Position numbers and translations under genes: made by a program. Below the pieces are notes generated by a model, which saw only the letters and a program-made list of their open reading frames with translations, did no database searches and was not told the DNA's origin. From an uncultured Bdellovibrionales bacterium (lineage in GTDB: Bacteria; Bdellovibrionota; Bdellovibrionia; Bdellovibrionales; UBA1609), in the NCBI GenBank assembly GCA_938001965.1, contig CALLBC010000257.1:1-38983 (forward strand): a stretch of 38,983 nucleotides of DNA. Direction: 5' to 3'. Shown here piece after piece: positions 10,646 to 34,228 of the stretch; positions within the stretch are counted from its first letter, which is position 1, and every line of letters begins with the position of its first letter.

Positions 10646-10647
10646 AA

Positions 10648-11580
10648 CTATAAAACCTTAAAGCCACTAAAATGCTCTTTCATAATCTGATTACAAAATT
10701 CTTTTTGATCATCTCTAAATAAAAAATGTACATTTGGCCCTGCATCCATAGTTACTATTGGACCATCTAGTTTATCTTCCCAAACGGACCTTATAATATT
10801 TAGACACTCCATAGTTTTTCCATTCATATAACCAAAGCCCGGCACTGAGGTTTCAAAAAGAGCATGCATGTCCCAAAACTCTGCCCAAGAAACTTGGTAA
10901 GCCTTTTGCCAATCTTTATTTTGAAAAGCTTTTGTTAATTCATGCAAACGAAGCTCTGCCCTCTCAGGGCGACCAGGAAACAATGAGCTACCAGCCACTA
11001 ACTTATGGGCAGCACTTGAAGACACCTTTTTCTCACCATCTTCAACCACTACAACTTTATGAATTAAATTTTTATAGGGAAAATCTTGCTTTTCAATTTT
11101 ACCAGCTTGCCACTTCACCCAACCACTTTCTAAAGAGCGACAAGAAGAACCAGAGCCTTTGGCACTGACCTCACCCAACTCACTCATAGTAAGCGTTTTA
11201 CCGCCTTTATTAAGTGATAACTGGTATGCGGCCTTAGTTAAAGCAGAAAAACTGGAAGCTGAGCTTGCCAAACCACATCCATAAGGGAAGTTATTCGCTG
11301 ACTTCACGGTATAGTTCCCTTCAATATTAAATCTGTCTTTTAAGTAAGACCAAAAGTTCAAAAACCTCTCAACAGACTTTTCAGAAAGATCTATGGCAAA
11401 CTCACTTTCTAATGGAAGCCAATTATCTTTATTATTATTAGAGGATTCAATTTCAACAAAAGTTTTTAAATGATCTATTGACCAAGATAATGAAGAATTT
11501 GTGGGAATATTATTATTTACATCAGTTTTACCCATGTATTTAATTAATGCAATATTTGATGGTGAACTGACTTTAATCAT
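10648..11580 (-). CDS. mvaD: Diphosphomevalonate decarboxylase
   Basis: A GHMP-superfamily enzyme that converts mevalonate 5-diphosphate to isopentenyl diphosphate with ATP, releasing CO2. Diagnostic features are SPSNIALIKYMGKTD at the N terminus followed by IPTNSSLS. GCGLASSASSFSAL serves as the phosphate loop, GSGSSCRSLESGWVKW follows, and the catalytic Asp lies in the TMDAGPN segment near the C terminus. The length of 310 aa is normal. The ATG overlaps the stop of the preceding kinase gene by 4 nt (ATGA), indicating translational coupling. This is the step that distinguishes the classical mevalonate pathway from the archaeal variants. Confidence 0.95.
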   Translation of the reverse strand: MIKVSSPSNIALIKYMGKTDVNNNIPTNSSLSWSIDHLKTFVEIESSNNNKDNWLPLESEFAIDLSEKSVERFLNFWSYLKDRFNIEGNYTVKSANNFPYGCGLASSASSFSALTKAAYQLSLNKGGKTLTMSELGEVSAKGSGSSCRSLESGWVKWQAGKIEKQDFPYKNLIHKVVVVEDGEKKVSSSAAHKLVAGSSLFPGRPERAELRLHELTKAFQNKDWQKAYQVSWAEFWDMHALFETSVPGFGYMNGKTMECLNIIRSVWEDKLDGPIVTMDAGPNVHFLFRDDQKEFCNQIMKEHFSGFKVL

Positions 11581-12479
11581 AACTGCCCCTTTACTTCAAA
11601 AGCAGGGTCCATCTCAACATGCATACCTTCACTAAATTTATTACCACTAAAAATCACTTCTAAATTGTTTGAATTAAAGTATCTCTTTACTTTTTTTGTA
11701 TCCTTAACGGCATGAATAGCTAAAACAGTGTCTGCACCGGCTGCACCACAAGCCTTCACAGCATGAAAGCATGTGGTTTCACTTTTAATCTTAGCCACTA
11801 AAGATCTCGACTCTTCACAAATTAGATTTAGATTGATTAACTCAGCATAATACTGGCTTATCCCTTCAGTAAAATTACTTAAATCTGCACCTTTGAAACT
11901 ATTAACTGTATTTAAACCAATTTGCTCAAGTGTAGTTAAATTATTTAATTTAACGTTCTTTAAATGCTCATGGGTTTTAACATTATTACCTGTACGAATA
12001 ATAGTTACTGCCATTTCAGGAAATGGCCACTCAAGGCGCTCAATAGTTTTGTCGCTTATATTTACATGACAGATCTTGCCATTAAATTGAGATATAACAT
12101 CGTAACCACTTTGTTTAGATTTACTGTAAAATAATAACTTTTCTCTAAAGGCCATTGAGTTAAATAATGGTTTTTTATCAATAATAGTTTTAAGAGCCAC
12201 TAAACCATTGAATTGAGCTCCCGAAGCACCAAAGCCACCTTGCTCCCTATGAGGGTCGTTAAATTCAAAGCTATACTTACTAAAAAGTTCAGAGTTTTCT
12301 AAAAAAAATATTCCAGTAGGGCTATTCGCATGAGGAGTAAAACTATTTTCATCAGTAACGGAGTCAGTTATGGTGTAGCAAAACTCTGGGCCTGTATTTA
12401 ATAATAAAGCCGGGCCCTCATTTAAAGCTACATACTCACCCACTAAAAAAGTTTTACTTGGTATTTTTATTTTTATCAC
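11577..12479 (-). CDS. Probable phosphomevalonate kinase (GHMP family)
   Basis: A 300-aa GHMP kinase-like protein. Motif 1 is present as KTFLVGEYVALNEGPALL. The phosphate-loop position reads GGFGASGAQFNGL, a departure from the usual GLGSSAA. A SGYDVISQFNG segment follows, and the C-terminal motif is CGAAGADTVLAI. The other two GHMP genes are assigned to mevalonate kinase and decarboxylase. Phosphorylation of phosphomevalonate is therefore the missing step and this gene the natural candidate, an assignment partly by elimination. It starts with GTG overlapping the HMG-CoA reductase stop (GTGA) and overlaps the decarboxylase start (ATGA). The divergent P-loop is worth noting. Confidence 0.72.
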   Translation of the reverse strand: MIKIKIPSKTFLVGEYVALNEGPALLLNTGPEFCYTITDSVTDENSFTPHANSPTGIFFLENSELFSKYSFEFNDPHREQGGFGASGAQFNGLVALKTIIDKKPLFNSMAFREKLLFYSKSKQSGYDVISQFNGKICHVNISDKTIERLEWPFPEMAVTIIRTGNNVKTHEHLKNVKLNNLTTLEQIGLNTVNSFKGADLSNFTEGISQYYAELINLNLICEESRSLVAKIKSETTCFHAVKACGAAGADTVLAIHAVKDTKKVKRYFNSNNLEVIFSGNKFSEGMHVEMDPAFEVKGQL

Positions 12480-13777
12480 AGGCTTTCTTTTAGCCTCATT
12501 TCTTTTAAAATCTCAGCAGCTTGTGACGGAGAGATTCGTTTTGTCTCTTTTAAAACTTGCTCCAATCTTTTTTGCAAAATTAAAGATTCACTTTCTTTTG
12601 CACCAGCACCCAAAGCTAAGTTTTTTATATGAAGCTTCATATGCCCTTCAATTATACCTTCAGTGGTTAATGCTTTTAAAGCTCCAAGGTTTTGGATTAA
12701 GCCCACTGAAGCACATATTCTTGATAACTCTTCTGCATTTTGTACACCCAACATTCGTAAGGACATTTGTGCCATTGGATGGAGGCGAGTTACCCCTCCA
12801 ACAACACCTAAAACTAAAGGAGCCTCAAATTTACCGATTAATTTATTACCATCAAAAGACCAAGATGTAATTGAGCGATATTGTCCACTTCTTGCAGCGT
12901 AGGCATGAATTCCAGCTTCGACAGCACGCCAATCATTACCTGTAGCAATTAATATGGGGTCAATTCCATTTAAAACTCCCTTATTATTTGTAGCAGCTCT
13001 ATATGGATCTTGCTGTGCAAAAAGGGAGGCTTCCACTATTTTTTCAGCTAATTTTTTTTCAATATTATTCACTTCAACTCTTGCATGAGTCACTTTGCTA
13101 TCTACTAAATTACTTAAGATACACATAGTCACTGTTTCTCGAGTTAACTCTTCAATGGGTTCTTTTAAATACTCACAGACTTGGTTAACAATATTTGCAC
13201 CCATGGCATCACATGCATCTAAAAATACATGAACAACAGCCATAAATTCGCCATCACCCCGTTCTACAGCGCGAACTGTAATGTCAGTAACACCACCACC
13301 ACGCCTTACTAAGCCATGGGCAACATTTTCGTTGGCCATATCTATAAATTTATTTTTTTCTTCTAAAATTATTTTTTTAAATTTTGCATAGTCAGACACT
13401 TTTGCAACTTGTATTTGACCAATAATTTCTTTACCAACAATATGAGTAGTGATTTTACCATTATCACGCACCCATTTAGCCGTTTTACTAGCGGCGGCAA
13501 TAATTGAGGTCTCTTCCACAGCCATTGGTATTGTATAGGCTTTTTTATCGATTACAAAATTTGTGGCTACTCCCATTGGTAATTGAAAATATCCAATCAC
13601 ATTCTCAATAAATTTTTCCGCCAGTAGCAAGTCCATTTTACAGCCACCGGCTAAGAACTTTTTATCCTCTATACTTATGGCTCCGAGCTTTGTTAAGCGA
13701 TCTAAACGCTCATCAAAACTTAGTTTTGAAAAGCCACTAAAGTACTTTTTTGCTAAATCTAGTTTTTGTTTATCCAT
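12476..13777 (-). CDS. mvaA: Hydroxymethylglutaryl-CoA reductase, class II type
   Basis: Reduces HMG-CoA to mevalonate, the committed pathway step. Family landmarks are ENVIGYFQLPMGVA (with the catalytic Glu), DAMGANIVN, NNKG (catalytic Lys), and the C-terminal EGHMKLH segment carrying the catalytic His. The length (433 aa) and absence of membrane segments match soluble class II bacterial enzymes. I prefer the ATG at 13777, with GGAAAG five bases upstream, over the in-frame GTG at 13783. The start lies inside the end of the IPP isomerase gene (19-nt overlap) and the stop overlaps the next kinase, so the operon is fully coupled here. Confidence 0.96.
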   Translation of the reverse strand: MDKQKLDLAKKYFSGFSKLSFDERLDRLTKLGAISIEDKKFLAGGCKMDLLLAEKFIENVIGYFQLPMGVATNFVIDKKAYTIPMAVEETSIIAAASKTAKWVRDNGKITTHIVGKEIIGQIQVAKVSDYAKFKKIILEEKNKFIDMANENVAHGLVRRGGGVTDITVRAVERGDGEFMAVVHVFLDACDAMGANIVNQVCEYLKEPIEELTRETVTMCILSNLVDSKVTHARVEVNNIEKKLAEKIVEASLFAQQDPYRAATNNKGVLNGIDPILIATGNDWRAVEAGIHAYAARSGQYRSITSWSFDGNKLIGKFEAPLVLGVVGGVTRLHPMAQMSLRMLGVQNAEELSRICASVGLIQNLGALKALTTEGIIEGHMKLHIKNLALGAGAKESESLILQKRLEQVLKETKRISPSQAAEILKEMRLKESL

Positions 13778-14814
13778 TTCCACTTTCCATCTAATTGGCT
13801 CAACGATTCACTACCTGTACAAAACATGGCAATCTTTAATTCATGCTCTAAAAGATTCATATAACTAATTAACTGAGCTTGCCCTTTTATTGCCGCTTGC
13901 AAAATAGGCCTAGCCAAACCCACGGCCCCTGCTCCCATAGCAATAAACTTGGCAACATCTAAACCAGTGCGCACACCACCGGAGGCCCAAATTGAATAAT
14001 TGGGATCTATAGATATGGCAGACATCAAAGATGATAACGTGCTCTCCCCCCAATTAGAAAATGTCTGAGAAGCTATGCTAGACATTTGTGAGTTTATGTC
14101 TGTTCTATCTTCAGCTCTTAAGCCCTCTACTCTTCCCCAATGTGTGCCGCCATAGCCACTTAAGTCAACAGCTTGAATGTTTGTGGATTTTAATTTTAAT
14201 AGTGTTCCCACAGAAAAACCACAGCCAGTTTCTTTGACAATCACTGGGACTGACAAGCTTTCACTAATTAATCTAATTTTATCAAGACCACCTTTAAAAT
14301 TAGTAGTTCCTTCTGGCTGAATGGCCTCTTGTAATGGGTTTAAATGAATAATTAAACCTATGGCATCAATGGATGTAACTAGAGACTCTAGACTATCCAA
14401 ATTGCACTCAATAGCCTGAGCAACACCGATATTGGCTAGCATTTTTAAATTTGGATGTTTTGCTTTAATGTCTTTCCACTCATTAGCCGCGCTATCATCC
14501 ATTAGCTGTCTACGCTGAGACCCCACTGCAAATAACCAATTCTTCTGTTCACAAGCAGAGGCAAAACTATCATTTAGTTTTTTTCCTTCAGAGTGACCAG
14601 CTGTCATGGAAGATACATAAATTGGTGATGAGAACATATGCCCTAAAATATTTTTAGATATATTAATTTCTGAAAAATTAATATCGGGCAATGCTTCGTG
14701 CACCAAAGCAATCCCTTGTAATTTATTATTTGAGACATCGACGTGGTTGTTTAAACAATGGCTGATATGATCTTTTTTTCGTTGCTCAAAATCTTTAAGA
14801 TTTTCTGGTTCCAT
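13759..14814 (-). CDS. fni: Isopentenyl-diphosphate isomerase, type 2 (FMN-dependent)
   Basis: Interconverts isopentenyl and dimethylallyl diphosphate using FMN and NADPH. Recognisable pieces are FEQRKKDHI near the N terminus, ISKNILGHMFSSPIYVSSMTAG, VGSQRR, HLNPLQEAIQPEG (substrate and Mg site), VIVKETGCGFS, VDLSGYGGTHWGRVE, and the FMN phosphate-binding ASGGVRTGLDVAKFIAMGA. Two starts are possible. The ATG at 14844 has no ribosome binding site and sits at the end of a terminator U-run. The ATG at 14814 follows an AAAGG, giving 351 aa, and I annotate that one. This is the first gene of the mevalonate operon. Confidence 0.95.
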   Translation of the reverse strand: MEPENLKDFEQRKKDHISHCLNNHVDVSNNKLQGIALVHEALPDINFSEINISKNILGHMFSSPIYVSSMTAGHSEGKKLNDSFASACEQKNWLFAVGSQRRQLMDDSAANEWKDIKAKHPNLKMLANIGVAQAIECNLDSLESLVTSIDAIGLIIHLNPLQEAIQPEGTTNFKGGLDKIRLISESLSVPVIVKETGCGFSVGTLLKLKSTNIQAVDLSGYGGTHWGRVEGLRAEDRTDINSQMSSIASQTFSNWGESTLSSLMSAISIDPNYSIWASGGVRTGLDVAKFIAMGAGAVGLARPILQAAIKGQAQLISYMNLLEHELKIAMFCTGSESLSQLDGKWKWINKN

Positions 14815-14845
14815 AAAACCTTTAAGCCCTTTAACTCTACTCATT

Positions 14846-14909: not shown

Positions 14910-15254
14910 TTACAGACCTAATTGCTTAACTAAATGTGTGAATCCCTCGGAATCATGTATTGCCATATCGGAAATCACTTTACGATCTAGCTCTAGTTCA
15001 GATTTATTTAAAGCACCAATCAGTCTTGAATAAGTTGTACCATTCATTCTTGCTGCTGCATTAATTCTTTGAGTCCAAAGTTTTCTGAATTCTCTTTTTT
15101 TCGTTTTTCTGTCTCTGTAAGCATATACTAAGGCACGGTCGTTCTTTTCTACAGCTGTGATGTAACACTTACTGTTTGAACCTCTGTAACCTTCTGCTCT
15201 TTTTAAAACTTTATTTCTTCTACGTCTTGCTTTAAAACCGCGTTTTACTCTCAT
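14910..15254 (-). CDS. rplT: Ribosomal protein bL20
   Basis: A large-subunit assembly protein of the 50S ribosome. The 114-aa sequence is a standard bL20: very basic N-terminal extension (MRVKRGFKARRRRNKVLKRA), the YRDRKTKKREFRKLWTQRINAAARMNGTTYSRLI core, and a globular C terminus. AAGGAG lies nine bases before the ATG. It is 13 nt downstream of rpmI. In several bacteria L20 represses its own operon by binding the mRNA leader. The leader upstream of rpmI here is long enough for that, but I cannot show a binding site. Confidence 0.98.
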   Translation of the reverse strand: MRVKRGFKARRRRNKVLKRAEGYRGSNSKCYITAVEKNDRALVYAYRDRKTKKREFRKLWTQRINAAARMNGTTYSRLIGALNKSELELDRKVISDMAIHDSEGFTHLVKQLGL

Positions 15255-15267
15255 GTCTAACTACTCC

Positions 15268-15459
15268 TTACAGTACTAAAAGTCTGTCGACTTGGTAAGA
15301 GTTAGCGTCATCAACATAAGTGCCTTGGCCCAAATGACGTTTTAATTTTGAAGAGTGATGCCATAGCCTGTGACGTAAGCCCACTTTATGTCTTTTTACT
15401 TTTCCACCAGGTTTAGCGCGCATACGTTTTTTCGCACCACTGTGAGTTTTTGTTTTCAT
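15268..15459 (-). CDS. rpmI: Ribosomal protein bL35
   Basis: A small basic protein of the 50S subunit. The start MKTKTHSGAKKRMR with the following KPGGKVKRHKVGLRH is the classic bL35 N-terminal half. An in-frame ATG five codons upstream (15474) is possible, but TAGGAG sits seven to eight bases before the ATG at 15459, giving the usual 63-aa protein. The gene heads the rpmI-rplT unit. The infC gene, its usual upstream neighbour, is almost 9 kb away on the same strand. Confidence 0.97.
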   Translation of the reverse strand: MKTKTHSGAKKRMRAKPGGKVKRHKVGLRHRLWHHSSKLKRHLGQGTYVDDANSYQVDRLLVL

Positions 15460-15586
15460 TGTTTCTCCTAACATCTGAAGAGGCGCGGATAAGCCTTATT
15501 GCTATCCATCTTTGAAGCCCATTTCAGGTAATAAGTAAGGGATATAACTACCTAAATTGGCACCCCTTGTCTAGCCCGAAATAAAT

Positions 15587-15615
15587 AATATAGGCCTCAA
15601 ATCTAATACAATCAA
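15587..15615 (-). promoter_or_regulatory. Predicted promoter of rpmI-rplT
   Basis: On the minus strand TTGATT (15615-15610) and TATATT (15592-15587) are spaced 17 nt apart. Transcription would start near 15580, leaving a leader of about 120 nt before rpmI, long enough for autogenous L20 control. Having its own promoter fits the separation of rpmI from infC. Confidence 0.5.
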
Positions 15616-15681
15616 CTTGATGTAAAATATACCCCAAAAGTCTCCATTGCCTATCAAACTCCCCTATTATATGAAGTCAGA

Positions 15682-16041
15682 ATGAAGGATAAATCACCAC
15701 TTTTTAGAAGAACAGTGGCTCTTGTAAAAGCCATTCCAAAAGGAAGGGTAACCTCTTATGGACAAGTAGCCGCCTTAATTTCATCTCCCGGCAGTGCGAG
15801 ATACATCAGTTATATTTTAAGATCATCATCTACGAAATACAGTTTACCCTGGCACAGGGTAATTAGCTCCACTGGTAAAATTGCTTCTCACACCTACTGC
15901 CAAACTCAAGCCCGCAAACTCAGGAAAGAAGGGGTTGAAATTGAACATAATAAAATTGATTTAGAAAGATATTCTTGGCAGCCAACAAAAGCTAAAGTAA
16001 AAGCCCTAATGAAGGGGCTGCCAAAACATAAAATAAAATAG
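15682..16041 (+). CDS. Alkyltransferase-like protein (ATL), MGMT fold without catalytic Cys
   Basis: A 119-aa protein of the O6-alkylguanine DNA alkyltransferase C-terminal fold. It has the winged-helix SYGQVA segment (residues 25-30), an Arg-containing recognition helix (SARYISYIL, where R40 would be the base-flipping arginine), and the active-site loop PWHRV at 56-60. Trp57 replaces the nucleophilic Cys of PCHRV. That substitution defines ATL proteins, which bind alkylated guanine without repairing it and pass the lesion to nucleotide excision repair. It is divergent from rpmI and convergent with the tldE-like gene 12 bp away. There is no strong ribosome binding site. Confidence 0.9.
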   Translation: MKDKSPLFRRTVALVKAIPKGRVTSYGQVAALISSPGSARYISYILRSSSTKYSLPWHRVISSTGKIASHTYCQTQARKLRKEGVEIEHNKIDLERYSWQPTKAKVKALMKGLPKHKIK

Positions 16042-16053
16042 ACTCTCAATTAC

Positions 16054-17286
16054 TTAATTAATCTTTACATTCATATGAGTAACAATACTTGGGTTATAGT
16101 GAGACGGCCTTATTGAATCACTAGCAATATCAATTAAATCATCACCTAAGTAATCTTGCACTTTCGCAGTTAAGGTTAATTGTGGTAAACGCCCAGCCAC
16201 CTTACCGTTTTTCATTAAAAATCCAAATTGCACTGGAGTTGAAAAACTACCATCATCAGTGAAGTCGCCACCAGCAGCCAGCTCAACAACTAAACATTCA
16301 GGTAAATCCGCTAAAATCTCACTAATGGACTTACTTCCCGGACCAATATAAACTTTATTAAAACCAATTTGTGGCGAAGAGTTATAACTACGCATTCCGT
16401 TACCAGTGCTTTGCATATTATATAGCTTTGCATTCCTAGCATCACAAACTAAATTAGAAAAAACACCTTTTTCAAACAAACTTAAAGATGGATCCTCTCT
16501 TAAAAAACCTTCCCCATCAAATGCACGCAAAGCGCTAACTTCAGGATTATAAGAGATATCAAAAATATTTAATTTTTCATTTAAAACTTTTTCACCAAGC
16601 TTACCCTTAAAAAGACCAACGCCTTTATGATACATATTGGCTTTATGCCCTGAGATAGCTTTTGATGTGATCATCTCTGAACCAGTAAATACAACCGGAA
16701 GCTTGCCTTCTTTTAAGTTTACAACGGTTTCGTAACACTCAAGGTAAGGGGCATAGTTACTAATTGTTTTTTCAAAATCTAGTTTACCCACTTCCATAGA
16801 TTCAAAGTAACTATCCATAATACCAGTTGAACTTTCATGCTTATAAATAATCTCAGATCGGCTAATATCATAGCTGTTAGTCATTGCCGTCCCATCAATA
16901 CTCATATTAGTTTGGTTTGAGTAGGTTGCCACATTGCCACTAAAAATAAATTTTGGAAAATTCTTAGTTAAATAGTTTAATGACTTAGTGGCTACCTCAT
17001 AGGCAGAATCAAACTCATTATTCAAAAATTGTACTTTTTTACTTACTGCCTTTGGTGCTGTTAATTCATAATCAAATGGCAAACTACCTAGCTCATTGCC
17101 AAGAGCCTGACTTATTAGTTTATCATCATCTATTTCTCCAATATTAGATGCCGAATAAACATTATTATCTTTGAAAACTCGAGCCCCTTTTTTGACAATG
17201 TTTTTATTCTTAACAGATACAATTTTATTACCTGCAATCTCAATTTTTTTCTCTTTAGTGTTATAACTTAATATTTCTTTTCTCAT
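16054..17286 (-). CDS. TldE/PmbA-like protein, first pair
   Basis: A 410-aa member of the TldD/PmbA family, the partner that forms a heterodimer with TldD. It lacks the HExxxH zinc motif, as expected for the TldE side. Conserved traits are the central VFTGSEMITSKAISGHKANMY region and the C-terminal GGDFTDDGSFSTPVQFGFLMKNGK block. The gene starts 3 nt after the stop of the TldD gene, so the pair should be made in equal amounts. TldD/TldE proteases degrade unfolded peptides and process CcdA or microcin B17 in Escherichia coli. The substrate here is unknown. Confidence 0.88.
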   Translation of the reverse strand: MRKEILSYNTKEKKIEIAGNKIVSVKNKNIVKKGARVFKDNNVYSASNIGEIDDDKLISQALGNELGSLPFDYELTAPKAVSKKVQFLNNEFDSAYEVATKSLNYLTKNFPKFIFSGNVATYSNQTNMSIDGTAMTNSYDISRSEIIYKHESSTGIMDSYFESMEVGKLDFEKTISNYAPYLECYETVVNLKEGKLPVVFTGSEMITSKAISGHKANMYHKGVGLFKGKLGEKVLNEKLNIFDISYNPEVSALRAFDGEGFLREDPSLSLFEKGVFSNLVCDARNAKLYNMQSTGNGMRSYNSSPQIGFNKVYIGPGSKSISEILADLPECLVVELAAGGDFTDDGSFSTPVQFGFLMKNGKVAGRLPQLTLTAKVQDYLGDDLIDIASDSIRPSHYNPSIVTHMNVKIN

Positions 17287-17289
17287 AAA

Positions 17290-18663
17290 CTAACTCACCA
17301 TCATATTATTAATTAAAATACTTGGACCACCATCATTCACAGGTAAAGGCGCTTGATCCCCCTTACCACAGCCACCAAAAGCTGAATTTTCTAGTAAGTA
17401 GTCATCGCCACATGCGTCTATATTATTTAAAGTTTCCATCATATCACCGGATATCACCGAAACTCTTATTGGCTCAGCAATTTTACCATTTCTAATCATG
17501 TAGCTTTTTCTAGGAGCAATTGTAAATGTACTTAAACCACTACCGTGGTTATAGTCTTTTATCAAAATACCTTCACCGGTTTTTTTAATCATATCTTCAA
17601 ACTTATCTTTACCAGGCTCCACATAGGTACTTGTCATTCGCACAATTGGCTCATATTCAAAATTAATTGCTCTACCGTTACCTGTTGGTGCTTCGTCTAA
17701 CACTTGTGATGTGTATTGTGAATGAAGTCTTCCAGTTAAAATCCCATCCTTTATTAGGTAGGTCTTCTTTGTAGGGAAACCTTCATCATCAATTGGACAA
17801 TAACCCGTACCGGTGCTGTCGGCCCCATGATCTACAATGGATACACACTCATTAGCAACCCTCTCCCCTAACTTCCAACTTTCTTTCATTTTAGGGTCTC
17901 CTAACATAAAATCAGCCTCTGACTTATGCCCAAAAGATTCATGAGCAAACACACCCACAACATGGCTTTCCATAACTACTTTATATGACCCTGCCTCCAC
18001 ATTTTTAGCATCTAAAAACAAATGGGATTCTTCCATAGCTTTTTTAATTTTATTTTCCTTGCCTGCGAAGTCTGATAAATCCTGGCCATAGAACATAATT
18101 AAATCTGAAAATTGATTATCACCCTCAGTCAAAGTATAACTTATTGCCAGACCAATATTTTGCACATCATAAGAAAATTCAACACCTTCAGAAGATATAA
18201 AAAACTTTTCTTTATACTTGTCTGTATAGTAAACGTTAATTTTACTCACTTTTTCAAATTTTTTAATCTCGGGAAAATAACTTTCAGCTAACTTCTTTTT
18301 ATCTTCAATGGAAACCTTAGTGATTTCTTTACCAGAAAAATTATTAATATGCTTAGCGTAGGAGTTTTGATTATAAGGTTTTAAATTATAATCTTCTTTA
18401 TTTCCTTCAAATTTTTTAGCATCTATAGCTAAGCTAATTATAGTTTCAGTTAAATCTGTTAAATTCGTAGTTGAGGAGTAATGCCACATACCTTTTTCAA
18501 AAACTCTAATAAAGGCACCCAAAGAAGGTTTAGTGTCACAAGCTACGATCTCATAGTTGTCATAGTTAATACTTGTAACCACTTCGTTTTCAATTCTAAC
18601 ATCCCAATACTGACAAGTGTCTGCTGGCACGTTGATAGATTTTAAAAGTTCGTTATAGTTCAT
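17290..18663 (-). CDS. TldD-like zinc metalloprotease, first pair
   Basis: A 457-aa metalloprotease subunit of a TldD/TldE heterodimer. The zinc motif HExxxH is at H241-E242...H246 (AHESFGHKSEADFMLGDP). The third ligand is probably the Cys in the C-terminal GCGKGDQAPLPV block, as in E. coli TldD. AAGGAG lies five bases upstream of the ATG, and a good promoter lies 45-75 bp upstream. The transcript should carry tldD-tldE only. A second, dissimilar TldD occurs at 32.8-34.2 kb, so this genome has at least two such systems. Confidence 0.9.
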   Translation of the reverse strand: MNYNELLKSINVPADTCQYWDVRIENEVVTSINYDNYEIVACDTKPSLGAFIRVFEKGMWHYSSTTNLTDLTETIISLAIDAKKFEGNKEDYNLKPYNQNSYAKHINNFSGKEITKVSIEDKKKLAESYFPEIKKFEKVSKINVYYTDKYKEKFFISSEGVEFSYDVQNIGLAISYTLTEGDNQFSDLIMFYGQDLSDFAGKENKIKKAMEESHLFLDAKNVEAGSYKVVMESHVVGVFAHESFGHKSEADFMLGDPKMKESWKLGERVANECVSIVDHGADSTGTGYCPIDDEGFPTKKTYLIKDGILTGRLHSQYTSQVLDEAPTGNGRAINFEYEPIVRMTSTYVEPGKDKFEDMIKKTGEGILIKDYNHGSGLSTFTIAPRKSYMIRNGKIAEPIRVSVISGDMMETLNNIDACGDDYLLENSAFGGCGKGDQAPLPVNDGGPSILINNMMVS

Positions 18664-18708
18664 TTTCGCTCCTTATTTAACAATATTAATAGTTAAATCT
18701 CACCACCA

Positions 18709-18737
18709 TTTATAATCTTCCCTACTGATAATTACAA
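18709..18737 (-). promoter_or_regulatory. Predicted promoter of the first tldD-tldE pair
   Basis: On the minus strand TTGTAA (18737-18732) and TATAAA (18714-18709) are spaced 17 nt apart, about 45 nt upstream of the TldD start codon, which itself has a strong AAGGAG. Confidence 0.55.
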
Positions 18738-18803
18738 TTAGCTAAAGTTACTTTCCTCTGAATACTGACCTTTGGCCACAAAGAAATTTAGGTTAGCATT
18801 GAA

Positions 18804-19349
18804 CTAACACCCAGGGTCACACCCTCTACCTGGGTTACTAAAGCCAGAACAACAAACTCCACCTAAAGGCTTAGCAATAATACTAATGTTTTCATTAAAA
18901 CTTAAGTCACTGCAAAATTTATTTTGCAATACTGCCTGATGGATATCAGCTTCTCCAAACTCATTATGGATCAAAACTATGTGGTAATTATATTTACAGT
19001 CCTTAGAGTCAATCACAGTATACAAGCCATTATAACTATGCGGTTTAAGTGCAACAATACTTTTCACGGCACTTGTCAGTGGCATTTCTTTAGCTACAGC
19101 TGTTAATAGAACTTGTAAGTTCTGAATACTTACCGAACGAGGAGGCAAAGCCCCTTGCAAGAAAATACCTACACTACCACCCAGTAAGTCAGCTTTGTTC
19201 TCACCATAACATGGTCGAGGAGTTGGTTTTGGCTTTGGCCTTGAGGGACAAAGTTCAGGATATACAATGCATGGATCCACCGCTGCAAAAGTATCTAGTG
19301 TAATTAATGCTGTCATTGTTATTGCTATTATTAGTAATGCTTTTTTCAT
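18804..19349 (-). CDS. Secreted Cys-containing protein, 181 aa
   Basis: Function not recognised. A signal peptide (about residues 1-22, ending TFA) is followed by a Pro/Lys/Arg-rich stretch with three Cys (PCIVYPELCPSRPKPKPTPR). A compact domain of about 100 residues follows. The C-terminal tail is Cys-rich with a CC pair (GGVCCSGFSNPGRGCDPGC). The even spread of Cys suggests disulphides formed after export. AAGGAT is seven bases before the ATG, and a promoter is visible at 19387-19415. It is divergent from an HTH regulator 121 bp away, which may control it. Confidence 0.75.
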   Translation of the reverse strand: MKKALLIIAITMTALITLDTFAAVDPCIVYPELCPSRPKPKPTPRPCYGENKADLLGGSVGIFLQGALPPRSVSIQNLQVLLTAVAKEMPLTSAVKSIVALKPHSYNGLYTVIDSKDCKYNYHIVLIHNEFGEADIHQAVLQNKFCSDLSFNENISIIAKPLGGVCCSGFSNPGRGCDPGC

Positions 19350-19386
19350 TTAATTCATCCTTTGTTTGAAATAAATCCACTATATT

Positions 19387-19415
19387 TATATAATCAGATG
19401 TGGTACTTAAATCAA
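19387..19415 (-). promoter_or_regulatory. Predicted promoter of the Cys-containing secreted protein
   Basis: On the minus strand TTGATT (19415-19410) and TATATA (19392-19387) are 17 nt apart in the space between two divergent genes. A regulator encoded on the other side could bind here. Confidence 0.5.
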
Positions 19416-19470
19416 TATTCACTTAAAAAGTATCAATATACGACCATATTTTAGCTCTGGAGTACCGAAA

Positions 19471-20214
19471 ATGGTTCAAATCGAAATTAACTTATTATTA
19501 GACACATTAAAAAAAGCCTTGAGCGCTAAAAAATGGACTTATAAAGCTATAGGTAAAAAGTTAAACTTATCTGAAACTACTATTAAAAGAATATTTTCCA
19601 ACTATGACTGTTCACTTACAAGACTTTCGCAAATCTGTAATCTTATTGGAATAACAATTATTGAGTTGGGCGAAATGGCCAAGTCCATTTCAACAAATGA
19701 AAATTACTTTCTAAATAAACAACAAGAGTCCTTTTTTGTTAAACACCCCTCCCTCCTTGCCATTTTCAGAAGCCTATACCGAGGATACTCACCTGAAAAA
19801 ATTAAAAAAGAATGGAATTTAAACAAGAATTCATTTTTTAAGACTCTATTAGAGTTTGAAAAATTGGGATTACTAGAGGTTCTGCCAGATAACAAGTATA
19901 AATTTAAAATCACTGGCAGACTTCGGTTTAAACTTAATGGCAAGCTCTTCAATAAAATTATTAAGCCACAAACGATAGATTTTATAAACACTGTGTACGA
20001 AAATATTGAAAGTGAAGACTGCTCTTTCCACAGTGCTGAACTACAAATGACTGCTCCCACAATGAAAAAAATGATTCAAGAAATTAATGAGCTTGGCGTG
20101 AAATATCGATCTCTTTCTTATTTAGAAGAACGAACCATGAATAAACAACTCTTAAAAGATGTGAAGTGGATTTTTGCTTTCCTCCCCTACACAACTGATT
20201 GGCATAAGTATTAA
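19471..20214 (+). CDS. HTH (Cro/CI-like) transcriptional regulator with unknown C-terminal domain
   Basis: A 247-aa protein. Residues about 5-65 form a helix-turn-helix of the Cro/CI type (WTYKAIGKKLNLSETTIKRIFSN, then SLTRLSQICNLIG). The remainder is a predicted all-helical or winged region containing a second HTH-like segment (about 100-135, LYRGYSPEKIKKEWNLNKNSFFKTL). No enzyme motif is seen. GGAG is eight bases before the ATG. It is divergent from the Cys-containing secreted protein, and its 3' end is only 6 bp from the arfB fragment. This organisation resembles the many HTH regulators with a conserved effector region found in Bdellovibrionota, but I cannot name the family. Confidence 0.75.
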   Translation: MVQIEINLLLDTLKKALSAKKWTYKAIGKKLNLSETTIKRIFSNYDCSLTRLSQICNLIGITIIELGEMAKSISTNENYFLNKQQESFFVKHPSLLAIFRSLYRGYSPEKIKKEWNLNKNSFFKTLLEFEKLGLLEVLPDNKYKFKITGRLRFKLNGKLFNKIIKPQTIDFINTVYENIESEDCSFHSAELQMTAPTMKKMIQEINELGVKYRSLSYLEERTMNKQLLKDVKWIFAFLPYTTDWHKY

Positions 20215-20220
20215 ATAGAT

Positions 20221-20452
20221 TTAATAATCAGGTTTTTTCTGGCGAAGCTTTTTAGTTTCAGATTTCTTTTTCTTATCTTTTAATCGGCGTTCTTTGGAAC
20301 CTTTGGTGGGCTTGGTTTTTTTTCGAGCCTTAGGGACATGGGAAGCCTCTTTCAGGCATTGAATTAATTTGTCTATACAGTTTTGCTTATTCATGTGCTG
20401 GCTTCTCGCCTGCTCACTGGCAATAATTAACTCACCTGTATTTGTAAGTTTT
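20221..20452 (-). pseudogene. 3' fragment of a second arfB
   Basis: Read on the minus strand, this stretch encodes the C-terminal 75 or so residues of ArfB, from SLKLTNTG to KKLRQKKPDY and stop. The intact gene lies at 23769-24188. By hand, about 24 of 230 bases differ, and all but one difference (Lys for Arg) is silent. Upstream of about 20452 the similarity falls away. In-frame stop codons follow near 20533, and the N-terminal GGQ domain is absent. It is therefore a broken copy. The silent-only divergence shows that both sequences came from functional arfB genes. Confidence 0.88.
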
Positions 20453-20555
20453 AATGATAAAGAAATAGCCGCTCTCTTAATTCCATCAGTAAAGGTAGAT
20501 GATGACTGGGAATTACTTCTCTTTGAATCTAATCAATTATTACTCTGTTACAAAA

Positions 20556-22781
20556 TTACTGCACTCCACGTAAATCTGGCCTACTAGGGGCCTCTATAGT
20601 TGGGCCATTAACTGTGCAGTCTTTTCTCTCAACTGGATTAACATATCGAAAGTAACGTTCATCTGTAATTGAACTTAAGTAAGCTAATAAATCTCTCTGT
20701 TGGCTAGAGTTAAAACAATCACCTCCATTACATCCAAAAGGCATACGAGGAGAGATATCTCCTTTCAAGTGACCCGTAACTTTACCCCAAAAATCATCCG
20801 AAGATGAGAACTGAGTTAAGCGAACAACTTCGACCTCATTAGCATTTTTTGGGTCCTGCGGAATAAAGCCTAACTCTTGATCACCAGTGTGGCACCTATT
20901 ACATCTTTGCGCTAACTGTTGACCTGACTTAACTTGGCTAACCTCAGCTTCTGTCATTGGGTTAACTTCTAAATTATCTATTCTAAGTTTAGAAGTGGAG
21001 CAATCTGGCTGTACAGTTGGTCGGGCAGATGCTAGCGCTGGTTCTTCATTTAACTTTGCTAACTCCTCATCTAATTTTCTTTTAAGGATAGCACAAGCTG
21101 AGTTAGAGTTATTTTGAAATTCACCACTGTCAACATCTCTTGAAACACCTCTCCCTAATTCATCAAAGCATGAAAACCTTGATCCAAAATGATTAGCTAT
21201 TCCATCAACAAGTAAATTATCTTTATCTTTAATCAGTTGCGGATCCCCTAATGAACTTGCAACATCATCCAATACATGACCTAAAGTAATATCATGAATT
21301 CCATGATCACTTCCAGTATCTGAAAAAATTACAGTGTTATACACTCCAGTACCTGCCCTAGGGTTTGAACTTAAGTCTTCTGGTGGATGCATTGTAAAGT
21401 CATTTTCTTCAAAACCAACAACTTCTTTAGCAAAGCTTTTAAAAAGAGGAAATGAATTCGGATCTCTAGCATTACTTGCTGAGTTAGCTATATTTTTTAA
21501 GCCCAACAAAGCTCCTATTCTTTGTCTATCTGCATCTGTAAGACAAGTTCTAAGTGATTCCATTGCTAAAACAATTTTAAATTTATCGTAATTCGGGTTA
21601 TCTTTAAGTAAACGATAATTTCTAACTCCAGTTAAATGTCCATAGGCATCAGTCATACGAGCATTAGTTCTAAGGCTATAGTTAAATGGATCTCTACCAC
21701 CAGGAACTCCAGTGCCGTCTCTTGACCTTTTCTGCGCACTGTCGGCATAAGGATAGTGTGAGTAATCTTGGTCTGTCCAGGCTTGCTCAATACCTTTGCG
21801 TTCTCCTTGCGGCAATTGAGCCCAAGGTAACGTCTGCAAACAAGGGTCAGTTTTAGATTTAGCTTGAATATCTTTAAATGAATTTTTTAACCTTTCATGA
21901 GCGGCCCTATCTAAATTCCTATTACAACCTGGAAAGCTATAAAACCTATTTCTATAAGCAGTGCGCCCCATATTATCATCACTCATTCCATAGAAAGTAA
22001 TTCCACGTTTTTCATCACAATCTCCCCAAAAAAAGTATTCAGGCCAATTTAATTTTAAATGCTCTGAGCCAGACTGACCATTTTTTGGTGTGGTTGAATG
22101 GCAGGACACACAAGACTGAGGTGAATGATGCACTCGTTTTCCTTTACCAGCAGCCCCTACTCCTACTCCATTTCTTGAATTAAAATCATAACTAAGAGTT
22201 TTAAACTTATCCTGCTTATCATCAAAATAAATCACCTCAACAGTATTATGCTTATCTTGCTTAGGGTGACAAACATAAGATATAGTGATCTTTCCATCAA
22301 TACTTCCTCTGAGTATTCGAGGGTTTTTCTCATCAACTAAATGATCACCTTCTCCTCTTTGTAATGACCTTGTATTAGTTATAAATGTAAACCCCTGCAA
22401 AGTTCCATCTGGAATTTTTTGCAAGAAGTCTAATAAATTATTACTCTCTAACGCTATGTCATCTAGTCTATCAATTGACAAGCCAATTTCAGAACAGTCA
22501 GACCTAACACCAAATGGAACTCGTTCCTCTGAAGATATTAACGAAGTCGGTATATCATATTTTACAGGCTCATTTTTGGCGCTCGGCTTTGATAATAAAG
22601 CTCTTAATTCCATAGCCTCTTTAGATGAACCATCAAGATTTATTGTATAATCAGCTTTAGCTCCTTTAAACTTAGCTTCTTTTGTTGTATCATTATAATC
22701 AACCACAACACCTGTTATTTCCTTTGCAAACAAAGCCCCAACAAGCAAATAAAATAATATAGTTATAATTTTAAAGTTCAC
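20556..22781 (-). CDS. Exported c-type cytochrome-like protein with two CXXCH motifs
   Basis: A 741-aa protein with a signal peptide (about residues 1-18). Two haem c attachment sites are present: CVSCH at 224-228 and CNRCH at 627-631. The second lies in a C-terminal monohaem-like domain, followed by RMPFG, whose Met is a candidate axial ligand. The middle (about 235-600) is a large region without recognised catalytic motifs. It is expected in the periplasm or on the outer membrane, after haem attachment by the cytochrome c maturation system. The start is GTG at 22781, preceded by AAGGTAA and overlapping the upstream gene by 11 nt. I cannot name its electron donor or acceptor. Confidence 0.78.
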   Translation of the reverse strand: MNFKIITILFYLLVGALFAKEITGVVVDYNDTTKEAKFKGAKADYTINLDGSSKEAMELRALLSKPSAKNEPVKYDIPTSLISSEERVPFGVRSDCSEIGLSIDRLDDIALESNNLLDFLQKIPDGTLQGFTFITNTRSLQRGEGDHLVDEKNPRILRGSIDGKITISYVCHPKQDKHNTVEVIYFDDKQDKFKTLSYDFNSRNGVGVGAAGKGKRVHHSPQSCVSCHSTTPKNGQSGSEHLKLNWPEYFFWGDCDEKRGITFYGMSDDNMGRTAYRNRFYSFPGCNRNLDRAAHERLKNSFKDIQAKSKTDPCLQTLPWAQLPQGERKGIEQAWTDQDYSHYPYADSAQKRSRDGTGVPGGRDPFNYSLRTNARMTDAYGHLTGVRNYRLLKDNPNYDKFKIVLAMESLRTCLTDADRQRIGALLGLKNIANSASNARDPNSFPLFKSFAKEVVGFEENDFTMHPPEDLSSNPRAGTGVYNTVIFSDTGSDHGIHDITLGHVLDDVASSLGDPQLIKDKDNLLVDGIANHFGSRFSCFDELGRGVSRDVDSGEFQNNSNSACAILKRKLDEELAKLNEEPALASARPTVQPDCSTSKLRIDNLEVNPMTEAEVSQVKSGQQLAQRCNRCHTGDQELGFIPQDPKNANEVEVVRLTQFSSSDDFWGKVTGHLKGDISPRMPFGCNGGDCFNSSQQRDLLAYLSSITDERYFRYVNPVERKDCTVNGPTIEAPSRPDLRGVQ

Positions 22782-23358
22782 AAGTTACCTTAAATCCACT
22801 CTTTTGTTTTTTAGAATTTACTAAATTCGTATACGTAAAATTAAACCTATTTTCATCTTCAAGAGTAAACATCAATATAGTTCTACCACCATAAACTATA
22901 CCTACAGCCGACTGATTTAAATCCCATTCGGGAATCTTTTTTGTAGACCAAACACCGTTGAACTTAACTTTGTGTGATCTTTTACATTTTAAGTTTAGAT
23001 TACACTGTAATTTAAAACGAATATGATCCTTCTCCTCTCCTCCAAAAATAGGCAAGTAAAGATCTGCCAAATAACTGTCATCAACCCGAGACACTCTAAG
23101 CTTCCTCTTTTCATTTATAATAAAAGTATTTGGAATAGTTTTAATTTCTGGAAGATCAAATGACTTAGTAAACTCAATTACTTCACTCACGCATTTAGCT
23201 TTTCTTTTTCTAGCCACTCTTCGAGACTTAGATCTTTTGCTACGTTTTATTTTCTTATTTTTTATTACTTTTGACTGAGCAGAAACAGTAGAGTTATTTG
23301 CACTATAAGCAATACCTATAAATATTATTAAGAAGATTTTAATAAAAATTTTCAACAT
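22771..23358 (-). CDS. Exported partner of the cytochrome-like protein, about 195 aa
   Basis: Function not recognised. It has a hydrophobic signal peptide and then a very basic segment (Lys/Arg-rich, about residues 35-60). A beta-rich domain of about 130 residues with a few Cys follows. A GTG five codons upstream (23373) is also possible. The ATG at 23358 begins directly before the hydrophobic core, and neither start has a convincing ribosome binding site. Its 3' end overlaps the start of the cytochrome-like gene, so the two are coupled and may form a complex in the periplasm. The basic stretch could bind an anionic surface. Confidence 0.65.
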   Translation of the reverse strand: MLKIFIKIFLIIFIGIAYSANNSTVSAQSKVIKNKKIKRSKRSKSRRVARKRKAKCVSEVIEFTKSFDLPEIKTIPNTFIINEKRKLRVSRVDDSYLADLYLPIFGGEEKDHIRFKLQCNLNLKCKRSHKVKFNGVWSTKKIPEWDLNQSAVGIVYGGRTILMFTLEDENRFNFTYTNLVNSKKQKSGFKVTCEL

Positions 23359-23768
23359 TTTCAAATGATACACTTGTTATTAAGAATACACGAGCTCGAT
23401 ATTAATAACTAAACTTTTATATTAAGCAGACTTTTTTATGATTTAATTAGGTTTACGAAACCAAGGAAATTCATAACTCTATAATATATATAAATTAAAT
23501 TAGTTTCCAAACAGCCATTCTTAAGTCAACAAATACTTTTGTATGAGCTTAATCATCAAATATTTTATACATTTTATAGACTAAAGTCGAACTTCTTGTG
23601 GGTTCAAATTCTATTATTTTCCAGGGGTGGGGGGGGAAAGCACTTAGTCAGAAGTGGAATTTCATAAGTTATTAGGTGTTATATGTATGATTCTTAGTTC
23701 TAAAACCACTATCTCAAAGATTTCAGAATATAATAATGCTTTAGTTTTTTTAAATAATTTAAAAGCAA
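23359..23768. other. Intergenic region between arfB and the cytochrome cassette
   Basis: About 400 bp with no convincing open frame on either strand. It is very AT-rich except for a guanine-rich tract (about 23624-23636: four G, T, eight G). A T-arm-like stretch lies just before it and was rejected as a tRNA. The region borders the arfB duplication and could contain the left junction of inserted DNA. No integrase, terminal repeat or clear terminator was seen. Confidence 0.5.
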
Positions 23769-24188
23769 TCAGTAGTCTGGCTTTTTTTGCCTTAGCTTTT
23801 TAGTTTCTGATTTCCTTTTTTTGTCTTTCAAACGACGTTCTTTGGAGCCTTTGGTGGGCTTGGTTTTTTTTCGAGCCTTAGGGACATGAGATGCCTCTTT
23901 CAGGCATTGAATTAATTTATCTATACAGTTTTGCTTGTTCATGTGCTGGCTTCTTGCCTGCTCACTAGCAATAATTAACTCACCTGTATTTGTTAGTTTT
24001 GACGATAGCTTATCAATTAATAAAGACTTAACTTTATCATTAATACTTGGGGACTGAAATAAATTCCATCGCAGCTGCACTTGCGAGTTCGTTTTATTGA
24101 CCTTTTGACCACCAGAGCCACTAGCCTTAACAAAGCTAAATTCAAGCTCATTTTCTGGGATCTGAATATCTTTATTTATAAAAACCAT
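23769..24188 (-). CDS. arfB: Alternative ribosome-rescue factor / peptidyl-tRNA hydrolase ArfB
   Basis: A codon-independent peptidyl-tRNA hydrolase that frees ribosomes stalled on truncated mRNA. The release-factor-like domain has the GGQ motif (SGSGGQKVNKTNSQVQLRW, residues 28-30 counting from the GTG at 24194). The C-terminal tail is long and Lys/Arg-rich, as required to enter the empty mRNA channel. About 139 aa, the normal length. ATG at 24188 or GTG at 24194 could start it, and no ribosome binding site is evident. It lies 44-50 nt after infC on the same strand and is probably in the thrS-infC transcript. A broken 3' copy lies 3.3 kb downstream. Confidence 0.95.
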   Translation of the reverse strand: MVFINKDIQIPENELEFSFVKASGSGGQKVNKTNSQVQLRWNLFQSPSINDKVKSLLIDKLSSKLTNTGELIIASEQARSQHMNKQNCIDKLIQCLKEASHVPKARKKTKPTKGSKERRLKDKKRKSETKKLRQKKPDY

Positions 24189-24238
24189 AACCACTTAAGT
24201 ATAACCTAAGTGTAAGCATATTTAAAATTGATCAGGAC

Positions 24239-31454: not shown

Positions 31455-32804
31455 TTACAGTGTAAAATTAAACTTGTTGATTAAAGCCCCTGGCGCACTA
31501 CTGCCGCCTATGTAGCGTTTATCATAAGTCATTGTATTAGGGTTAATTTCTGACTCTTTAGTGAAGTCATTAAGCTCAGAGCCGAAGCAGTTATATAAGC
31601 TCTCATCAAACCTTAAATCTTTTATAGGCCCAACGATCTCACCATCTTCTACCCAAAAGCAGGCAAAGCGAGTCATACCTGTAATCCTTGCACTCATGCG
31701 GTCACTCCAATTTAAATAATGTAAATTAGATAAGTAGAGTCCAGTTCCTAATTCTTTTAAGACATCCTCTTGTGATAAGTTACCAGGCTTAATTACTGGA
31801 GAGCCAAGCATCTCATAATCATTAGCTTGATTAGATGGCACGTTAAACTCTGCCGATGATTTTGAAGACACTAACAATGTTTTTAGTTCTCCATTTTCAA
31901 TTAAGTTTAATTTGTTCGCTCTCACCTCGCCTAATTCATTAAATTTTGGTGATAAGCCTAATTCAAAATTTTCTTGTAAACTAAATTTTGGCGACAAAGA
32001 CTCTTTACCTTCTTTTAACTTAGCAAAGGCGCAGTACCCTTGCTTGAAAGCGGACATACTCAAAGAACCCCACGACATGGTGCCTAAAATTTCACTAACA
32101 GCACCAGGAGCCAAGTATGTTCTATGTGCGCCAGGCTTAACATTAACCACTGGTAAATCCATTTTAGTTAATAGTTGTTTTGATGTTTCAATATTAGCTA
32201 AATACTTTTGGCTATCCCATTTACTTCCGGCATAACAGTTTTTCACTGCCTTTTGCTTAGCTGAGTAAAGTGAGTAATCAAAATAAAAAGTATTGGATGT
32301 AAACCAATGCTTTAAACCTTTTGAGTTATATACCCCCTCACTCACAGGCCCTGATACAAAAATCCCTGCCATGTCCACATCTTGCAATGGAGCAAGAACT
32401 TCAGTGGTTACATCAATAAGGCTAGCCGCTTCTGTTTCAATAATTTGAGAGCTATCCGTCCCGGCCTGTGGCAAAACTACACTTTGGCTTTCTGGTAAGT
32501 TTTCAGCATCTTGCTTACAATCCGCAATTAACTCTAAGCCTAGCTTTAAATCCACTGACTCATCAAAACTAATATTCATTGATTTTGATAGTGACCGATT
32601 ATTTTTAATAAAAGTTAGACCAATAGCATTTTGGGAAACATTAGTTGCTTGTCTTAGTTTTGACTGGTTAAACCTATAAAACTGAGTCTCTTCACCACTG
32701 TATGAAATCGTTAAGTGCTCATCACTTGCCAAGGCTGCAACTAATTTTTCACTAAGGCTATAAAAATACTTTTCTTGTTTTTTAATTTTATCAAACACAG
32801 ACAT
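31455..32804 (-). CDS. TldE/PmbA-like protein, second pair
   Basis: A 449-aa TldD/PmbA family protein without the HExxxH motif, so the non-zinc partner. Conserved sections are VYNSKGLKHWFTSNTF in the N-terminal half, KPGAHRTYLAPGAVSEILG in the middle, and the C-terminal LNWSDRMSARITGMTRFACFWVEDGEIV segment. Its ATG overlaps the TldD stop by one base (TAATG), so the two subunits are coupled in translation. It differs clearly from the first TldE in this window, including length. It is the last member of a four-gene operon with a transporter and a membrane protein. Confidence 0.88.
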   Translation of the reverse strand: MSVFDKIKKQEKYFYSLSEKLVAALASDEHLTISYSGEETQFYRFNQSKLRQATNVSQNAIGLTFIKNNRSLSKSMNISFDESVDLKLGLELIADCKQDAENLPESQSVVLPQAGTDSSQIIETEAASLIDVTTEVLAPLQDVDMAGIFVSGPVSEGVYNSKGLKHWFTSNTFYFDYSLYSAKQKAVKNCYAGSKWDSQKYLANIETSKQLLTKMDLPVVNVKPGAHRTYLAPGAVSEILGTMSWGSLSMSAFKQGYCAFAKLKEGKESLSPKFSLQENFELGLSPKFNELGEVRANKLNLIENGELKTLLVSSKSSAEFNVPSNQANDYEMLGSPVIKPGNLSQEDVLKELGTGLYLSNLHYLNWSDRMSARITGMTRFACFWVEDGEIVGPIKDLRFDESLYNCFGSELNDFTKESEINPNTMTYDKRYIGGSSAPGALINKFNFTL

Positions 32805-34228
32805 TACTTACCTCCACCAAAAACTTCAATATTAGAAAATAAAGCCGTGGGAACTGCATGCCCTACTCGAATAACTTGGTTTGGCTCACCTTTACCACAA
32901 TAAAAACTTCCAGATACTTCCATAGTACTTTCATCACCCAACATTTTTAAATTCGTCCAAAATGGTGTGCATTGTCCACGATAGTTAGGGTTTTTTACAA
33001 CTTTAGTTAGTTTTCCATTTTCAATAAGTTGTCCGTACTCACAACCAAACTGGAATTTGTCGCGATAATCATCAATTGACCATGACCTATTGGCTTTCAT
33101 CAAAATCCCTTTTTCGGTAGCGCTAATCATATCAGCCATGGTTGATGTCCCAGTTTCCACATTAATATTGGCCATTCGATCAATAGGCGGCCTGTTCCAT
33201 GACTGCATTCTAGCACAAGAAACACCATCCACACCTAAACGAGCCTGGCTTTCTAAACTTCCAATCCCAGCCACTAGCTTTCCACCTTTAATTAAATATT
33301 TCTTCTCAGCCTTTGCGCCCGTATCATCAAAGTCATAGGATGCCAGCTCACTAGTTATGGTTGGATCAAAAGTAACATTTAAAAGTTCAGAGCCGTACTG
33401 TAATGTTCCAAAGTCTTCTTTATTTAAAAAACTCCAGCCAGCGTAATTTCGTTCATCACCTAAAATTCTATCAAGCTCAAGTGGGTGTCCAATAGATTCA
33501 TGCACCTGCAAATACATTTGGTCTGGGGTGATCATTAAATCACGAGTGTCTGATGGGCAGTTTTCTGCATTTAATATTTCATTGAGCTCTCTAGAGATTT
33601 CAATGGATTGTTGTTTCAAACTATCCTTATTAAAATAATCTAAACCAAATTGACCAACTTGCCCCCCGTTAGAACGGGTTTGGTTGTCGCCATTAAGCGA
33701 CGCTGCCATTCCTAAATCTAAAGTGCATTGTGTGAGCTTTTGATGGTAATCAGAACCATTACTACTTAAAAATAAAGTTTCAGTATCAGAAACAATGGTC
33801 CTTGCACTACGGCTCATTAATTGGGCATCACCACTTACAGTCATAAACTTTGTAGCATTCACTAGGTTATCAGCAATTTCATAGATACTTGATTTATCAA
33901 ATTGAGTTTTCACCTGGCTTGAGTACGTACCAACAGCCTTAGGCCTTTGCTCCATACTAAAATTATATAAATTCCATTTTTCATTTTTTAGAGCCTGTTC
34001 AGTGGCCTGATCAAAAGCTCTTTGTATGGAGTCAAAACTTAAATCATTAGTAGCAACAAATGAAAACTGACCATTAACTAAAACTTCGGCCATGACCCCA
34101 TTGTCATAACCTGTATTAATACCATCTAATTTCTCATCTCTAACAGATAAACTGGTTTGAGTTTGGTTGATATGGCGCAATCCCCACCAATCAGCTTTTA
34201 CATTTAGTTTTTTAAATATATCACGCAT
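32804..34228 (-). CDS. TldD-like zinc metalloprotease, second pair
   Basis: A 474-aa TldD. The zinc motif is H243-E-S-I-G-H248 (VHESIGHPLELDRILGDE) and the C-terminal YCGKGEPNQ block holds the probable Cys ligand. A GGAAGG ribosome binding site sits nine bases before the ATG, which follows the stop of the membrane-protein gene directly. The partner TldE starts on its stop. Compared with the first TldD, only the motif neighbourhood and general plan agree on inspection, which suggests separate orthologous groups rather than a recent duplication. Confidence 0.9.
   Translation of the reverse strand: MRDIFKKLNVKADWWGLRHINQTQTSLSVRDEKLDGINTGYDNGVMAEVLVNGQFSFVATNDLSFDSIQRAFDQATEQALKNEKWNLYNFSMEQRPKAVGTYSSQVKTQFDKSSIYEIADNLVNATKFMTVSGDAQLMSRSARTIVSDTETLFLSSNGSDYHQKLTQCTLDLGMAASLNGDNQTRSNGGQVGQFGLDYFNKDSLKQQSIEISRELNEILNAENCPSDTRDLMITPDQMYLQVHESIGHPLELDRILGDERNYAGWSFLNKEDFGTLQYGSELLNVTFDPTITSELASYDFDDTGAKAEKKYLIKGGKLVAGIGSLESQARLGVDGVSCARMQSWNRPPIDRMANINVETGTSTMADMISATEKGILMKANRSWSIDDYRDKFQFGCEYGQLIENGKLTKVVKNPNYRGQCTPFWTNLKMLGDESTMEVSGSFYCGKGEPNQVIRVGHAVPTALFSNIEVFGGGK

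Follow-up and report, generated by a model that had tools for sequence, protein, structure and literature searches.

Foreign genes can enter a chromosome during natural transformation by homologous or homology-facilitated recombination, making use of sequence that is shared on one side only. It is also known that inserted DNA can give a protein-coding gene a new 3′ end. A described case is the icd gene of E. coli K-12, the site of e14, where the remnant icdC is found (Hill et al. 1989, as cited in PMC6379469); e14 is a 15-kb prophage with an integrase and an excisionase. In Streptococcus pneumoniae merodiploids, uptake of DNA that is partly repeated in the chromosome is described as giving rise to repeat-bordered duplications of the cell's own DNA, about 100-900 kb in size (PMC3784515).

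We describe here a locus in an uncultured Bdellovibrionales bacterium where the 3′ end of the ribosome-rescue gene arfB occurs twice, on either side of a two-gene cassette. The window, which is the whole stretch of 38,983 nucleotides that was analysed, is contig C257 of a genome assembled in 266 contigs. As in e14/icd, the insert is bordered by the intact gene on one side and, in direct orientation, by the displaced 3′ end on the opposite side; as in icd/icdC, both ends are coding-compatible and differ mainly at silent positions. Unlike e14, the arfB insert is small (approximately 3.3 kb), holds two genes and has no integrase, and the divergence between the two ends is both larger than that of icd/icdC and strongly uneven. 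The locus also differs from the pneumococcal merodiploids, as these are described in PMC3784515, in that only 239 bp are duplicated and the 3.3 kb of genes that they enclose are foreign to the genus. Homology-facilitated recombination would fit an insert that has arfB sequence at its flanks and lacks an integrase.

Results

Two arfB 3′ ends that differ almost only at silent positions

The intact copy scored 158 bits in an NCBIfam profile search against the ArfB equivalog NF006718, passing the curated cut-off of 100, and matched PF00472 (RF-1); the GGQ motif falls at codons 28-30 and the basic C-terminal tail is present. The genes infC and thrS adjoin it (feature coordinates are collected in Table 1). 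A repeat search of the window returned an ungapped direct repeat of 249 nt (20211-20459 versus 23759-24007; spacing 3548, identity 88%), which bears out a prior sequence-only reading that some 230 bases of the arfB 3′ end occur twice in direct orientation about 3.5 kb apart.

That reading had also counted, by hand, about 24 differences with one amino-acid change, and eight silent changes plus a different stop codon in the last ten codons; both counts were reproduced. Over codons 66-142 (231 bases) the copies differ at 24 positions: 21 codons are changed silently, one carries an R-to-K exchange, and the stop differs (TGA versus TAA). Among the last ten codons there are 8 silent nucleotide changes in addition to that of the stop. 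Within codons 66-141 there are 23 nucleotide differences in 22 codons, and R127K is the sole amino-acid change (dS 0.72, dN 0.011). When 23 positions were changed neutrally in simulation, a mean of 17 nonsynonymous changes resulted, with a minimum of 8 in 20,000 runs, against the 1 observed. Divergence of this silent-only type indicates that protein-level selection acted on the fragment until a recent time, and hence that its source was a functional arfB already distinct from today's gene, in support of the proposal, already made from the sequence, that it came from another functional arfB lineage.

The edges of the repeat are abrupt. Past the stop codon, the copies are no more alike than background within 10-20 bases, and at the other edge their similarity stops near codon 64, where the difference is silent, followed by an S to L change at codon 65. 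Since the fragment starts near codon 64, beyond the GGQ, it is missing the RF-1 domain with this motif, and it has no usual start codon ahead of Met85. A search alignment hinted that the fragment might extend upstream to approximately codon 41; DNA and profile tests gave P values of about 0.01-0.07, and the extension is not established.

Table 1. Features of the arfB locus, with positions in the window
Feature	Position	Strand	Basis
Displaced arfB 3′ end, codons 64-142, without GGQ motif	20221..20459	-	Repeat search and codon comparison
Joint between end of cytochrome-like gene and fragment; possible, unproven further arfB similarity	20460..20555	.	Sequence comparison
Cargo gene 2: 741-aa exported-type protein, two CXXCH motifs	20556..22781	-	ORF; relatives in a different family, same phylum
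Cargo gene 1: 200-aa secreted-type partner, overlaps gene 2	22771..23373	-	ORF; small gene at same position in G075 and G050
Non-coding stretch from cargo gene 1 to arfB, 27% GC	23374..23768	.	Composition
Intact arfB, 141 aa, GTG start, RF-1 domain with GGQ	23769..24194	-	NCBIfam ArfB equivalog NF006718, Pfam RF-1, ORF
Tail of intact arfB, codons 116-142, silent divergence from fragment at saturation; counterpart 20221-20301	23769..23849	-	Codon comparison
Possible crossover zone: longest identical run between copies (codons 103-116, 41 bp); counterpart 20302-20342	23850..23890	-	Codon comparison; run length alone P=0.15

Uneven silent divergence along the repeat

Silent differences are not spread evenly over the two copies. 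In codons 66-115 only 7 of the 49 comparable codons are silently different, where independent codon choice would give 27, whereas in codons 116-141 the figure is 14 of 25, with 13 expected under independent choice. The contrast between the two parts is significant (Fisher P=3e-4; clustering P=1e-4). Constraint does not account for the low divergence of codons 66-115, as the same codons of the window's own arfB are saturated relative to G003, one of three other genomes of the genus (G001, G002 and G003; ArfB identity 61-74%) with which the locus was compared: 20 of 38 differ. The different depths of divergence in the two parts require recombination inside the repeat block, and no one divergence time fits its whole length.

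A second identical run of 26 bp covers codons 67-76. Taken as a candidate attachment core, the 41-bp run has a length no greater than chance (P=0.15). Compared with G003, the tail of the intact gene differs in 6 of 23 silent codons (P=0.005 against saturation) and that of the fragment in 12 of 23. These counts hint at a G003-like origin of the intact tail, which we do not claim because trees of the 78-base tail gave it no support; the same trees left undecided which end is resident and which imported.

The two-gene cassette

Both cargo genes are intact open reading frames, overlapping by 11 bases, and a Pfam scan of the two proteins assigned neither to a family. The 741-aa protein, with its two CXXCH motifs, matched a CxxCH cytochrome domain of NCBIfam only below threshold (E=0.048). 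It is missing from the three congeners, the only other genomes of the genus compared, and has weak matches alone within the family. Its best relative in the phylum belongs to another family (G075, 53-56% identity), and further relatives at 30-36% identity were found in G050, G060, G131, G148 and G353. The 741-aa homologue is preceded in both G075 and G050 by a small gene of exported type, 20-23% identical to the 200-aa partner in the window. We infer a two-gene, cytochrome-like cassette that has been transferred among families of the phylum. In G353, also of another family, the gene of the 741-aa, two-CXXCH type is present in two tandem copies (L116; C36:29531-33587).

Several searches for signs of mobility were negative. 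Codon usage of the cargo is ordinary for the window, so there is no compositional sign of foreign origin; no cargo relatives were found in the plasmid search or in viral contigs, and a phage search with cargo gene 1 only gave no match. Neither terminal inverted repeats around the insert nor RNA families and tRNA targets were found. The insert consists of the two cargo genes only and holds no integrase; the 14 tyrosine-recombinase matches in the genome are all on other contigs, unlinked to arfB. As a separate observation, 14 phage-integrase family matches in this genome compare with 3 to 8 in the congeners, which suggests many mobile elements.

Discussion

We favor the possibility that the arrangement is the scar of an insertion, in which DNA carrying both the cassette and a separate arfB 3′ end was joined at arfB, one end completing the gene and the other being left 3.5 kb away; we regard this as probable, if by no means secure. 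In this scenario a segment with the two cargo genes and an arfB 3′ end of its own would have joined the chromosome at arfB, recombination within the shared arfB sequence would have provided the resident gene with a complete 3′ end, and the other 3′ end would have stayed behind at 20221-20459. Because arfB would have regained a complete 3′ end, ArfB would have stayed functional. DNA of a related lineage may have recombined with the chromosome by a homologous or homology-facilitated route, or an integrase working from elsewhere or since lost may have acted; given that the insert is without an integrase, the former is at least as likely as the latter. What the sequences show is two copies that differ at silent positions, sharp edges of the repeat, a cargo missing from the genus and an uneven divergence that requires recombination within the block; the insertion, its direction and its mechanism are our inference.

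Our reasoning for favoring an insertion is that: (i) the divergence between the copies is silent only; (ii) the repeat ends abruptly, at codon 64 and at the stop; (iii) the 741-aa gene is missing from the three congeners and has its closest relatives in a different family; (iv) G001 has arfB and rpmI without an insert; (v) the divergence is split between codons 66-115 and 116-141 and (vi) the pair bears the icd/icdC signature. With regard to the last point, icd and its displaced 165-base end icdC in E. coli MG1655 were measured likewise as a control. They differ at 12 bases, which leaves 9 codons silently changed and two Asp/Glu exchanges, and identity to icd is lost at once upstream of icdC. 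As this pair is also silent-biased, the arfB pair shares the signature of a known insertion that supplies a 3′ end, and the arfB scar is best explained as one of that type. Against an insertion stand the missing integrase and terminal inverted repeats, the lack of plasmid, phage or viral relatives and the ordinary codon usage of the cargo; moreover, one uniform event does not by itself account for the uneven divergence. The integration model of the sequence-only reading, in which a related strain would be the donor, is supported in part: recent protein-level selection on the fragment, the foreignness of the 741-aa gene to the genus and a layout like that of e14/icd all speak for it. That reading did not take in the strongly uneven divergence along the fragment.

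Three other explanations merit attention, each of them weaker than an insertion scar. It is conceivable, though unlikely, that arfB once stood here in two complete copies, the second being an old duplicate or an acquired gene, with both under selection, and that the downstream copy later lost its 5′ half to the cassette or to a deletion. Such an ancestor would explain the silent-only divergence without a tail swap, and a trace of the lost half might survive in the weak similarity ahead of codon 64, but this similarity is not significant (P 0.01-0.07) and the uneven divergence would call for added recombination all the same. Furthermore, a second arfB was found in no genome of the genus, and within the family in G026 alone, as a partial match. 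A somewhat less probable explanation is that the contig is an assembly artefact joining two co-occurring strains, one contributing arfB and the cassette and the other a second arfB allele and the regulator side. Assembly in 266 contigs, the fact that the close relatives are metagenome assemblies and a break inside the arfB 3′ end of G002 as well would be in keeping with such a chimera. False joins usually track shared words, however, and the joint at 20460-20560 has no long exact repeat; the two arfB copies share no identical run longer than 41 bp.

The uneven silent divergence is what would be left behind if an older displaced fragment had been partially overwritten by gene conversion from the intact arfB, with the first two thirds converted and the tail unconverted. 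An old tail without function should show amino-acid or frame changes, yet there is one conservative change in 26 codons, and all 7 changes in the "converted" part are silent too; we consider this improbable, slightly more so than a chimeric contig. More speculative than any of these, and quite doubtful in our view, is a variant of the insertion scar in which the cassette is a small mobile unit without an integrase that repeatedly inserts at the arfB 3′ end, bringing its own recoded arfB tail. If this were so, the recoded tail would preserve the ribosome-rescue gene of the host even though the incoming and native tails would have little DNA identity. Under the favored insertion scar, a gene and a displaced end that have diverged at silent positions only would together record an insertion involving another functional lineage. 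We found no earlier description of arfB as an insertion point in a limited literature search.

Variation around arfB in the genus

The order of genes around arfB differs among the window, G001, G002 and G003, a pattern that suggests a variable arfB neighbourhood within this Bdellovibrionales genus. G001 has the order thrS-infC-arfB-rpmI-rplT, where arfB is followed by 0.3 kb of non-coding DNA and no insert; as an empty-site comparison G001 thus offers an insert-free arfB, but at 61% ArfB identity it is too distant to give an exact empty site. The distance from arfB to rpmI is 8.3 kb in the window, and set against the gene-free 0.3 kb of G001 the interval up to rpmI/rplT looks like a variable spot. 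Several genes lie ahead of rpmI in G002, and in G003 one gene separates infC from arfB and further DNA follows arfB. In 16 other genomes of the family, where approximately 1.5 kb on each side of arfB was covered (less at contig ends), infC, thrS, rpmI and rplT were not found.

Contigs C91 and C3 of G002 share an exact 55-bp overlap (L073 and L074, the first 55 bases of each), so that this assembly breaks inside the arfB 3′ end. A break there is as expected at a branch of an assembly graph, and strain variation at this point is possible.

Between arfB and rpmI/rplT (14910-23769), the window holds an ogt-like gene, a PmbA/TldD pair, a 181-aa cysteine-rich protein and an HTH regulator, in addition to the fragment and the cassette. 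There are two separate TldD/PmbA-like gene pairs in the window (16054-18663 and 31455-34228), whose TldD members are approximately 24% identical. Beside rplT, at 9758-14844, is a run of mevalonate-pathway-like genes (kinases, a decarboxylase, HMG-CoA reductase and a type 2 isomerase, all named by eye), and a run of this kind next to rplT is common to G001 and G002.
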